A DNA stretch of 64,000 nucleotides from Acidimicrobiales bacterium (GTDB taxonomy: Bacteria; Actinomycetota; Acidimicrobiia; Acidimicrobiales; Aldehydirespiratoraceae). The DNA lies in contig JAJCXZ010000026.1 in NCBI GenBank assembly GCA_029263175.1, forward strand, positions 1 to 64,000, in the 5' to 3' direction. The stretch's first letter is position 1. Every line of letters starts with the position of its first letter. The position numbers and the translations under genes are program-made. Positions 20,769 to 26,981 of the stretch are shown here, in pieces. Under the pieces are notes generated by a model. The model searched no databases and was not told where the DNA came from. It was given only the letters and a program-made list of their open reading frames with translations.

Positions 20769-21476
20769 ATGACCGAAGCAGCCGGACTCACGACCGAACA
20801 ACGCGACCACATCATGGTCATCCATCTCGATGATGGCAAAGCGAACGCCCTGTCGTTCAGGCTCATCGCCGCGATCCACCACGCAATCACCAAAGCTGAG
20901 AATGACGACGAGATCGGCGCCGTCGTGCTTCACGGGCGACCGGGTCGTTTCTCCGGCGGCTTCGACCTCGGCGTCATGTTCGCGGACGACCTCGACGCGA
21001 TCGTCACCCTCGTGGCCGACGGTGGCGGCCTCGTGCGCCGCCTCTATGGCTCATCGGTCCCGGTGGTCGCCGCGTGCACCGGCCATGCGCTGGCCGCCGG
21101 CGCCCTCATGCTCCTCGGGTGCGACGTCAGGGTCGGCGCAGACATCCCGACGAAGATCGGTCTCAACGAGGTCGCCATCAAGATGGTGCTCCCCGACTGG
21201 GCGATGACCATCGCCCGGGATCGACTCAGCAAACGCCACATGCAGCGTGCCATCGTCAACGCCCGCATCACCACCCCCGCAGAAGCGGTCGACGTCGGCT
21301 TCCTCGACGAGGTCGTTGCCGAAGACCTGCTTCTCGAACGAGCGATGGAGATCGCCGCCGAATTGGCCGCCACCCTCGACCCCACCGCCTACGCCGGCAC
21401 CGTCGCCAAGTTCCGCGGCGAAACCCTCGCCACCATGGACGCCATGGTCACCGCCGCCCGAGCCTCCATCGCCTGA
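20769..21476 (+). CDS. Crotonase/enoyl-CoA hydratase family protein, divergent from the carboxylase operon
   Basis: This short (235-residue) crotonase has one oxyanion segment, GRPGRFSGGFDLGVMF, and the second, CTGHALAAGALMLLGCDVRVG. The glutamate in IGLNEVAIKMVLPDWAM is at the first catalytic position. The length is below the usual 255-265 because the C-terminal helices are reduced. It is transcribed away from the carboxylase operon and probably shares its control region. It may serve the same acyl-CoA pathway. The substrate is unknown. Confidence 0.85.
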   Translation: MTEAAGLTTEQRDHIMVIHLDDGKANALSFRLIAAIHHAITKAENDDEIGAVVLHGRPGRFSGGFDLGVMFADDLDAIVTLVADGGGLVRRLYGSSVPVVAACTGHALAAGALMLLGCDVRVGADIPTKIGLNEVAIKMVLPDWAMTIARDRLSKRHMQRAIVNARITTPAEAVDVGFLDEVVAEDLLLERAMEIAAELAATLDPTAYAGTVAKFRGETLATMDAMVTAARASIA

Positions 21477-21507
21477 GTTCAAACGGGGGTCAGACCCCTG
21501 TTTCAAC
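21477..21507. repeat. REP-like palindrome, copy 1 (GGGGTCAGACCCC core)
   Basis: This 31-bp imperfect palindrome reads GTTCAAAC, then GGGGGTCAGACCCC, then TGTTTCAAC. It begins one base after the crotonase stop and contains the RidA stop: on the minus strand, TGA lies inside GTTGAAAC. It fills the whole gap between two convergent genes and could form a bidirectional terminator. Related to copies at 25049 and 26029. Confidence 0.8.
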
Positions 21508-21898
21508 TCGACGACACGACCGCCATCGCTTCGACCTCGACCAGCAGCTCCGGCATGGCCAGACCGGCTTCGAGCGCGGTAGCCGCCGGATAGGGCTCCG
21601 ACAGGTAGCGAAGCCGCACCTCCCGGAGAACGCCCAGGTTCGAGATGTCGGTGACGTAGCTGCCGAGCCGAACGACGTCGGCGAACGTGGCACCTGCCGC
21701 GGCCAGGGCGAGACCAAGATTCTCGAACGCTTGAACCGCTTGGCCCTCGAAGTCGCCAGGGCTCACAATATTTCCGCCGGCATCAAGTGCGACCTGGCCC
21801 GAGACCACCACTATTCGACCGGTCGCGCTGACCGCCTGGGACATACCCGCTGGTCGGGCATCCCAGAGCTCAGGGGGATTGTGTCCGCTCGTGGTCAT
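21503..21898 (-). CDS. RidA/YjgF/YER057c family protein
   Basis: This 131-residue protein matches the RidA family, trimeric cytoplasmic enzymes that hydrolyse reactive enamine/imine intermediates released by PLP enzymes. Typical segments are VSATGRIVVVSGQVALDAGGNIV, the helix QAVQAFENLGLALAAAGATFADVVRLGSYVTD, and a C-terminal AGLAMPELLVEVEAMAVV. Some RidA subfamilies lack deaminase activity and act in specific catabolic routes. It is coupled to the next gene downstream, an aminotransferase (ATGA overlap at 21895-21898), so clearing imines from that enzyme is a reasonable role. The stop codon lies inside the palindromic repeat. Confidence 0.88.
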   Translation of the reverse strand: MTTSGHNPPELWDARPAGMSQAVSATGRIVVVSGQVALDAGGNIVSPGDFEGQAVQAFENLGLALAAAGATFADVVRLGSYVTDISNLGVLREVRLRYLSEPYPAATALEAGLAMPELLVEVEAMAVVSSS

Positions 21899-24252: not shown

Positions 24253-25056
24253 ATGACCACAGTCACCGTCGCCTCCGTCATCGCCGACCTCGTTGCTGAG
24301 CAAGAGGCTCTCGACGCGGTGGTGGCGCCTCTTGCCGCCGCGGAATGGGAGCTCGCCACGCCATCTCCGCGCTGGGCCATTCGCGACCAGATCGGCCACT
24401 TGGCCTTCTTCGACGAGACCGCCGCGCTCGCCATCAGCGATCCGGAGGGGTTCATCCAGCACCGAACCGACTTCGTTGCCGCGGCGTCCGCCAGTCCCGG
24501 CGCGGGCGACGAGCTCACCCTCGGAGTCGCTCGGGCAATGACCGCCGAGGAGCTCCTTGCCCACTGGCGGGACTGCCGAAGTCGACTCGCAGCGGCCGCC
24601 GCCGGCTGTGGCGAGAAGGATCGCATCGAATGGTATGGCCCATCGATGGGTGCCAAGTCGTTCCTCACCGCCCGTCTCATGGAGGCATGGGCTCACGGAC
24701 AGGACATCTGTGACGCCGTCGGCGCCGGCCGGGAGGCCACCGACCGACTGCGTCATATCGCCCAACTCGGCTTCATCACTCGCGGATGGACGTACATCAA
24801 CCGCAAGATGGAGATCCCCGAGGGCGATGTGCGTGTCGAGCTGGAGTCACCATCCGGTGAGACCTGGCTCTTCGGCGCCGACACTGCGACTGCGACCGTG
24901 CGCGGCTCTGCCGAAGACTTCTGTCTCGTCACGTCCCAGCGCCGCAACCTCGCCGACACCTCCCTCGCGATCGACGGCGCCATCGCCCAGGAGTGGCTCG
25001 AGATGGCTCAGCTCTTCGCCGGCCCGCCCAGCAACCCCCCACCCCCCCAAAGTTGA
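24253..25056 (+). CDS. DinB/MDMPI-like metal-binding protein (TIGR03084 type)
   Basis: This 267-residue protein has an N-terminal four-helix DinB-like domain (residues ~10-170). Candidate metal-ligand histidines lie in IRDQIGHLAFFDE and LMEAWAHGQDI. WRDCRSRL and the overall length fit the actinobacterial TIGR03084 group, related to mycothiol-dependent maleylpyruvate isomerase. The C-terminal domain (SCP2-like fold) holds EIPEGDVRVELESPSGETWLFG. It may act in thiol-dependent detoxification; the reaction is unknown. Its TGA stop (25054-25056) is supplied by the palindromic element that starts at 25049. Confidence 0.8.
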   Translation: MTTVTVASVIADLVAEQEALDAVVAPLAAAEWELATPSPRWAIRDQIGHLAFFDETAALAISDPEGFIQHRTDFVAAASASPGAGDELTLGVARAMTAEELLAHWRDCRSRLAAAAAGCGEKDRIEWYGPSMGAKSFLTARLMEAWAHGQDICDAVGAGREATDRLRHIAQLGFITRGWTYINRKMEIPEGDVRVELESPSGETWLFGADTATATVRGSAEDFCLVTSQRRNLADTSLAIDGAIAQEWLEMAQLFAGPPSNPPPPQS

Positions 25057-25095
25057 AACGGTGGGGTCAGGCGCCCGTTTCAACTGGGGACAGAC
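25049..25095 (+). repeat. REP-like palindrome, copy 2 (left flank of TauD gene)
   Basis: This 47-bp element has AAA, then the arms GTTGAAACGG (25052-25061) and CCGTTTCAAC (25075-25084) around TGGGGTCAGGCGC, then TGGGGACAGAC. The arms pair perfectly over ten bases. The TGA stop of the upstream gene is inside the left arm. Copy 3 at 26029 has the same sequence in the opposite orientation, differing at a few positions and one indel. Confidence 0.88.
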
Positions 25096-25130
25096 CTCCC
25101 TCGCCCATACAAGCTGCTTGACTGAGGAGC

Positions 25131-26018
25131 ATGGCCGAACTGATGGTGGAACCGCTGCACGACCGCTTCGGGGCCACGATCTCCGGCATCGACCTCCGCA
25201 CCGTCACCGAAGGCCACCTGTACCCCGAGATTCGGGCTGCGTTCGAAGAGCACTCGCTTCTGCTCTTCAGAGATCAGCAACTGGACAACGCCAGCCACAC
25301 CCATCTCGCGTCCCTGTTTGGTCCGCTCGAGAATCGTGAACAGATCGCGGGCAACGACGAGCCGTTCAGCGTCTCTACGGTTTCGAACGTCACCGACGAC
25401 GGATCGCTTCTCACCACCGACGCTCTGACCCTCATCGACCTCACCGCCAACATGCTGTGGCACACGGATTCGACCTTCCTTCCGGTCCCTGCGCTGGTCA
25501 ACCTCCTGGCGGCCGCCGTCGTTCCCTCGAGCGGTGGCCAGACCGAGTTCTGCACGACCCGGGCTGCGTTCGGCGACCTCGCCCCGGGTCGCCAGGCGGA
25601 GGTCCGCCGGCTGTTTGCCGTGCATCAACTCACCCACTCCCGCGAACAGATCGACTCCCGGCTCACCGAGCTGGACTACGTCTCACGCTGGCCGGATCGG
25701 GCCTGGCGCACCGTGTGGCGCAACCCGACGAACGGTCGCGAGGCGATCTACATCGCATCGCACGCCTACACAATCGAAGGCATGGACCGAGCCGCCGGCG
25801 AGCAGTTCGTGGGCGAGCTGCTCGAACACTGCACCCAGCCCGCCTATCGGTACTCACACGAATGGACGGTGGGCGACGTCATCATCTGGGACGAGCGAGC
25901 AGTCCTGCATCGCGGTCGGCCGTGGCCCTACGACGAACCTCGCACGCTGAACAGCATCTGCTGCTCGGTCACCGAGCTCGACGGTTTGGCCTCGGTCCGC
26001 CCGCCCACGGGGCCCTGA
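25131..26018 (+). CDS. TauD/TfdA-family 2-oxoglutarate-dependent dioxygenase
   Basis: This 295-residue Fe(II)/2-oxoglutarate oxygenase shows H111-x-D113 in MLWHTDSTFLPVPAL and the distal H260 in AVLHRGRPWPYDEPRTLN, followed by the arginine (R271) that binds 2-oxoglutarate. The N-terminus DRFGATISGIDLRTVTEGHL is typical of TauD/TfdA. Such enzymes oxidise taurine, phenoxyacetates, carnitine precursors or terpenoids; substrate not assignable. ATG at 25131. The gene is the only content between two inverted palindromic elements (25049-25095 and 26029-26074), which suggests it may have moved as a unit. Confidence 0.88.
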   Translation: MAELMVEPLHDRFGATISGIDLRTVTEGHLYPEIRAAFEEHSLLLFRDQQLDNASHTHLASLFGPLENREQIAGNDEPFSVSTVSNVTDDGSLLTTDALTLIDLTANMLWHTDSTFLPVPALVNLLAAAVVPSSGGQTEFCTTRAAFGDLAPGRQAEVRRLFAVHQLTHSREQIDSRLTELDYVSRWPDRAWRTVWRNPTNGREAIYIASHAYTIEGMDRAAGEQFVGELLEHCTQPAYRYSHEWTVGDVIIWDERAVLHRGRPWPYDEPRTLNSICCSVTELDGLASVRPPTGP

Positions 26019-26028
26019 CGTTTCCGCA

Positions 26029-26074
26029 GTCTGTCCCCAGTCAAAACGGGGTCTGACCCCATCGTTTCAACTTT
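26029..26074 (-). repeat. REP-like palindrome, copy 3 (right flank of TauD gene, inverted)
   Basis: Read on the minus strand this 46-bp element is AAAGTTGAAACGATGGGG, then TCAGACCCCGTTTTGAC, then TGGGGACAGAC. It matches copy 2 in reverse orientation. It starts ten bases after the TauD stop, and the ppx stop codon (26069-26067) is the TGA inside its GTTGAAAC arm. It could also terminate both convergent transcripts. Confidence 0.88.
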
Positions 26075-26981
26075 GGAGGCTGTGGGCCAAGCCGTCGAGA
26101 ATGTCGGACTCGCTGACGAGGCATTCCTCGAAGCCGAAGTAGCGCATGATGCGAACGAGGATGCACATGCCGCCGACGATCACGTCGGCTCGCGCCTCCT
26201 CGAGGCCCGGGTTGTGGATGCGATCCTCACGAGGCTCCATCACGAGGGTTCGATAGACGTCTTCGATCGCCGCCTTGGACAGGCGGAAGTGATGGACCTG
26301 AGCCCGGTCATAGTCGGCCAGACCGATTTCGACCGCCGCCGCCGCTGAAACCGTGCCGGCCACGCCGACGAACGTCCTGGCGTTGAACGACTGCGGCATC
26401 TCGCGGGCGACGTCGTCCAGGTGAGCCTCGGTGATCGAGAGGCAGGCCATGAGTTCTTCGGGGCGGGGCGGATCGTGCTCGATGTACTTCTCGGTCAGCC
26501 GCACGCACCCGATGTCCAGCGAAAGCGCCGCCTCGGCCTCAGTCGTGCCGTAGGCAAACTCGGTTGAACCGCCACCGATGTCAGCGACGAGGAACGGACC
26601 ATCGTCGGGATCCAGTTCGGCCGTAGCGCCCTGGAACGAGAGCTGGCCCTCTTCGAGGCCGGAGAGCAGTTCTGGTCGAGCGCCGATCACGACCTCGACC
26701 CGATCGAAGAAGTCATCTCGGTTCGAGGCATCGCGGCACGCCGACGTTGCCGCCGCACGTACCTGACCAGCTCCGACGCCGTGGCGATCCATGACCTGGC
26801 GGTACTCACGAAGGCACGTGATCACTCGATCGATGGCCTCGTCGACCAGCCGTCCATTGGCATCCACGTCCTGACCGAGACGAGTGATCGTCATCAGCCG
26901 TTCGAGGGTCTGGGTGCCATGCAGCACGAGCAGACGGGTTGAGTTGGTGCCGAGATCGATGGCGGCGACCGGACCGCTCAT
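26067..26981 (-). CDS. ppx: Exopolyphosphatase / Ppx-GppA family phosphatase
   Basis: This 304-residue protein of the ASKHA fold has phosphate-1 motif VAAIDLGTNSTRLLVL, a conserved RAAATSACRDASN segment, and phosphate-2 motif LVADIGGGSTEFAYG. Adenosine-type motif VGVAGTVSAAAAVEI follows. It releases phosphate from polyphosphate or hydrolyses pppGpp; the short single-domain form is common in actinobacteria. The ATG at 26981 overlaps the DUF501 stop (ATGA). It is the last gene of the conserved eno-ftsB-DUF501-ppx order. Its stop is provided by repeat copy 3. Confidence 0.92.
   Translation of the reverse strand: MSGPVAAIDLGTNSTRLLVLHGTQTLERLMTITRLGQDVDANGRLVDEAIDRVITCLREYRQVMDRHGVGAGQVRAAATSACRDASNRDDFFDRVEVVIGARPELLSGLEEGQLSFQGATAELDPDDGPFLVADIGGGSTEFAYGTTEAEAALSLDIGCVRLTEKYIEHDPPRPEELMACLSITEAHLDDVAREMPQSFNARTFVGVAGTVSAAAAVEIGLADYDRAQVHHFRLSKAAIEDVYRTLVMEPREDRIHNPGLEEARADVIVGGMCILVRIMRYFGFEECLVSESDILDGLAHSLQS

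Follow-up and report, generated by a model that had tools for sequence, protein, structure and literature searches.

The question raised by this locus is how a single gene comes to lie between two palindromic elements that face each other. The window, meaning the whole stretch of 64,000 nucleotides that was analysed, holds such a gene, and the initial annotation read the arrangement as a mobile cassette or REP doublet that had captured it. The features concerned are the following.

21476-21508, + strand: third element of the same repeat family, solo, on the stop codon of the ORF at 20769-21476 (+)
24253-25056, + strand: DinB/MDMPI-like gene (TIGR03084), resident; its ortholog adjoins ppx in the sister genus
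25049-25095, + strand: left palindromic element, AAAGTTGAAACGGTGGGGTCAGGCGCCCGTTTCAACTGGGGACAGAC; the DinB-like gene takes its TGA stop from the 5' end of this element
25131-26018, + strand: TauD/TfdA-family Fe(II)/2-oxoglutarate dioxygenase gene (Pfam PF02668, E 2.7e-52)
26074-26029, - strand: right palindromic element, AAAGTTGAAACGATGGGGTCAGACCCCGTTTTGACTGGGGACAGAC; ppx takes its TGA stop from the 5' end of this element
26067-26981, - strand: ppx/gppA exopolyphosphatase gene, resident, by family and ortholog matches

Re-alignment bore out the positions, sizes and opposite orientation given in the initial annotation for the elements at 25049 and 26029, and its "few differences" beside one indel come to about six. 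Common to both elements are AAAGTTGAAACGRTGGGGTCAGRC and the tail ACTGGGGACAGAC, and their 3' arms are similar. The left and right arms are complementary at 84% over 37 nt and at 91% over 22 nt, and as single strands the left element folds into a hairpin of -22.3 kcal/mol and the right one into a hairpin of -18.3 kcal/mol. As described there too, the TauD gene is the sole gene between them and its 3' end falls 10 bp short of the right element; the distance between the arms of this bracket is 933-962 nt. The encoded protein scores 113.5 bits against the taurine dioxygenase equivalog, far below the cut-off of 313. What that reading did not include are the overlaps with the outer stop codons, the third, solo copy in the window and many solo copies across the genome. 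The ends of the DinB-like gene (25056) and of ppx (26067) each lie within an element, and both read CAA AGT TGA. An upstream CCAAA is found in both TauD-flanking copies and in no other copy found in this genome. It is worth noting that at the solo element a second frame, the ORF at 21503-21898 (-), has its 3' end inside the repeat.

The elements belong to a large family with the core GGGG[T/A]CAGACCCC. A 20-nt end motif has 11 matches in this genome and none for the reversed control, while the 14-nt core TGGGGWCAGACCCC, at up to one mismatch, has 111 matches here and 190 in the congener G001, against 1-2 for its reversed controls (2 in this genome). Since these numbers far exceed the controls, the similarity of the elements is not due to chance. 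Each genome has several types of stem, in a bulged and an unbulged register, and the exact core sequence was not found in a search of the literature. In a different genus (g8), two loci (L077 in G036 and L115 in G010) show tandem core elements 23 bp apart, with a spacer of the (GT/GC)ACTTTC type.

The family is closely tied to a transposase. A survey of 61 genomes, this one (G000) and 60 relatives, was searched for the exact core and for Pfam Y1_Tnp. The core is present in ten genomes, nine of which carry a long RAYT-type Y1 transposase; it thus occurs in all nine genomes with a long RAYT and in 1 of the 52 others, namely G003, a fragmented assembly, and 51 genomes have neither. The remaining genomes with Y1_Tnp (G052 and G056) encode short IS200-type proteins and have no core. 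In this genome, where the initial annotation had suggested looking for a Y1/RAYT transposase, the Pfam search finds one (C81). The aligned long transposases conserve NH(Y/F)H (HUH) and Y(T/S)..FN (the catalytic Tyr), and the best NCBIfam match of the four long proteins tested is REP_Tyr_transpos, at 37-56 bits and under the cut-off of 80. Transposase genes lie inside inverted, core-bearing pairs in G000 (C81), G001 (C36, C63 and C109), G002 (C204) and G032 (C4), and the stem of each pair is particular to its gene. In G001 the TauD-flanking pair and the pair around the RAYT on C36 share the stem GTTGGGAC; a RAYT with the stem of the TauD pair analysed here, GTTGAAAC, was not found in G000. The elements are a dispersed, RAYT/TIRYT-associated palindromic repeat family, and the earlier "REP doublet" was right in kind, as they are REP-like and RAYT-linked.

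Three known repeat types are comparable, the REPINs (PMC3116915), the GTAG REPs and the TIRs of TIRtrons. REPINs are short doublets of inverted REP units in genomes with a RAYT. An inverted pair and a RAYT are found here too; however, the spacer of a REPIN is short, whereas a whole gene lies between the units of the TauD bracket. GTAG REPs are dispersed intergenic palindromes whose rayt genes are flanked by two inverted copies (PMC2817692, 2010), and whose termini often supply a stop codon (PMC3733652). All of these traits recur in the present family, but the 5' foot lacks a GT(A/G)G head and the conserved core differs. A better match is found in the TIRs of TIRtrons or TIRYTs, in which inverted repeats carrying GGGGWSAS flank RAYT-like HUH transposase genes (PMC3733652, 2013); some TIR families consist of self-complementary sequences with repeat copies in the genome (PMC3733652). 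Judged by motif and description, GGGGWSAS is likewise found here, in GGGGTCAG, present in both TauD-flanking elements, and in GGGGACAG, present in the tail and around the C81 transposase. With the motif, a transposase gene within an inverted pair, and a Y1 protein with HUH and catalytic Tyr, the family appears on its sequence to fit the TIRYT/TIR (GGGGWSAS) group described in 2013. Unlike the published TIRs, it is found in Acidimicrobiia, reaches 100-190 core copies per genome, has several stem types and is tightly tied to stop codons.

This tie gives a simple route to the inverted geometry. Genes were called from open frames and codon-position GC. On these calls, an 8-nt slot at the 5' boundary of the element contains a gene-like stop in 43 of 85 cases, compared with 0.44% for random positions drawn from the same stretches. 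The 64 nt upstream of the slot contain one in only 11 of the 85, and in 10 elements both ends lie on stops. In a sample that was not selected for pairs, 21 of 37 elements have the stop, with a slightly wider slot. The GTTG family has it in 17 of 23 cases, nearly all at -12 or -13, and because TAG, TGA and TAA all occur among these, the stop comes from the target rather than from the repeat. The 5' feet read CTGA, CTAG, CTAA or CAAA, and the TauD-flanking elements follow the rule with a slight shift of frame. Elements are oriented by the gene whose stop they occupy, and as the DinB-like gene and ppx converge, an inverted pair at their ends is automatic.

Comparison with relatives gives the history of the locus; most of these genomes are fragmented assemblies, and the three named congener records are MAGs. 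A TauD ortholog (70% identity) lies between the DinB-like gene and ppx in each of the three congeners, G001, G002 and G003. In the sister genus (g3), three genomes (G020, G025 and G030) show the junction that the initial annotation had predicted, with DinB adjoining ppx across a short spacer, without TauD and also without an element. In a tree, the TauD proteins of the genus form a clade inside Pseudomonadota, beside Rhodobacteraceae and relatives and apart from the other Acidimicrobiia TauD proteins sampled. The gene is specific to the genus and, by this placement, was acquired from Alphaproteobacteria. Genomes outside the genus also have other genes in the same spacer, as read from sequence an enoyl-CoA-hydratase-like one in G014, G005 and G034 and a peroxiredoxin-like one in G012, and no elements; the spacer thus gains genes independently of elements. 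Such spacer genes without palindromes (L049, L051, L053 and L054) mark this convergent-gene spacer as a hot spot of gene gain. The genus branches as (G000,(G001,(G002,G003))). Both TauD junctions of G001 have intact elements, those of G002 have decayed ones, and in G003 there is one, decayed, at ppx. Since all four species have elements at these junctions, they were probably present in the ancestor of the genus. The stems of G000 and G001 have changed and are still paired, which would match the co-evolution of RAYTs and their repeats (PMC2817692). Elements at the same stop codons in two species (L014 and L002; L139 and L235) also differ in stems that are internally paired, GAAAC/GTTTC versus GGGAC/GTCCC, and it looks as if the whole repeat family had been rewritten in concert. 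At one orthologous gene 3' end (L159 in G000, L128 in G001), the elements belong to two different stem families, which suggests independent insertions at the same gene end.

Brackets around other genes, which the initial annotation expected of a cassette, do exist in G001. Several of them, however, hold resident, vertically inherited genes. At L132 the element-free G020 and G025 have gpmI directly beside its left neighbour; at L129 the phzF-like gene adjoins the neighbour on its right in both G002 and G003; at L142 the order of a short conserved segment and clpP is unchanged in G020, G025 and G030; and at L140 a metallo-beta-lactamase-fold gene is in place in G002, G003, G020 and G025. A same-stem bracket, L139, encloses 1.7 kb that is lineage-specific. 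At this locus G000 has an element without the cargo, g3 has neither, and G002 and G003 carry another gene (AdoMet-decarboxylase-like, as read from sequence) and no element, so that element and cargo are uncoupled.

The orientation of neighbouring elements in G001 shows a further pattern. Among the matches listed (L128-L147), elements within about 3 kb of each other are mostly facing ('+...-') and never diverging ('-...+'). A hand count of neighbours 150-3100 bp apart, again among the matches listed, gives 11 facing pairs with RAYT units excluded, 5-6 same-strand pairs and no diverging pair, where random insertion at gene ends on a simulated gene map would give about 2, 3-5 and 1. As the full cause of pair orientation, independent random insertion at gene ends was rejected, because the simulation yields too few facing pairs.

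The best explanation, to which we give a probability of roughly 70%, is that two separate insertions of the dispersed repeat took place at the stops of the DinB-like gene and ppx, around an acquired TauD gene. The TauD gene would have entered the convergent DinB-ppx spacer from Alphaproteobacteria in the ancestor of the genus. Repeats dispersed by the RAYT/TIRYT-type transposase, which may target or tolerate stop codons, would settle 5' end first exactly on gene stops, and the two stops would have been occupied separately, in distinct events. Separate insertions are favoured because the elements abut both stops exactly and brackets elsewhere hold resident genes; in the empty sites a short, element-free spacer separates the two stops, and one event alone should not bring about contact with both. 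Evidence against this reading is found in the excess of facing pairs in G001, among the matches listed, and in the CCAAA that, among the copies found in this genome, only the TauD-flanking ones have. In addition, TauD and the elements are both found in the genus and both absent from the sister-genus site, a pattern with which a single joint arrival would also be compatible.

It is unlikely that a RAYT, which would move its own gene between inverted elements, also moved an element-flanked TauD gene into the DinB-ppx spacer. RAYT units do have the same architecture and length as the TauD bracket (about 0.9 kb between cores), the cargo is foreign and genus-specific, the TauD pair of G001 matches one of that genome's own RAYTs in stem type, and the lineage-specific segment at L139, the shared CCAAA and the facing pairs could be read in the same way. 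Against this, the elements leave no spacer between themselves and the resident stops, brackets of the same geometry surround the resident genes named above, and cargo and elements are uncoupled both at L139 and in the DinB-ppx spacer of other species. No second location of the element-TauD-element unit was found; it occupies a single locus in the genus, and TauD was found with elements of this family nowhere else in the genomes searched. The empty sites of the sister genus lack the elements as well, but across the distance between genera they do not isolate one event. The gene-capturing cassette of the initial annotation is therefore unsupported, given that the stop-codon rule alone produces the inverted geometry and that brackets also hold resident genes.

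Improbable as well is that the hairpins, whatever their route of arrival, are kept for a role in mRNA at convergent gene ends, be it protection of transcript ends, ribosome stalling or insulation of an acquired gene. Their position exactly on stop codons, the elements with stops at both ends and the persistence of changed, paired stems in G000 and G001 would agree with this, and in E. coli, REPs close to stops are reported to stall ribosomes (PMC12306157). However, the elements are decayed in G002, partly lost in G003 and absent from the sister genus, and intrinsic terminators with a T-run (U-tail) were not found at the element junctions. Lastly, the idea that brackets are relics of RAYT units was discarded, because neither the other non-RAYT brackets nor the TauD bracket holds a RAYT remnant.

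For the biology of these bacteria, the findings place a large RAYT/TIR repeat system in Acidimicrobiia and show how strict its placement on stop codons is. Single genes can come to lie in an inverted, cassette-like arrangement with no cassette involved, and as foreign genes and elements both enter the convergent 3'-3' spacers of this family, caution is needed where composite units are proposed from geometry alone. The excess of facing pairs beyond the random gene-end model is a testable point. It is quite doubtful that whole genes lying between facing stop-codon palindromes travel by way of a RAYT-type HUH transposase in Acidimicrobiia; if they did, bracketed genes such as TauD would be true single-gene cassettes inserted into convergent-gene spacers, and the excess of facing pairs would be the trace of whole-gene movement by RAYT.
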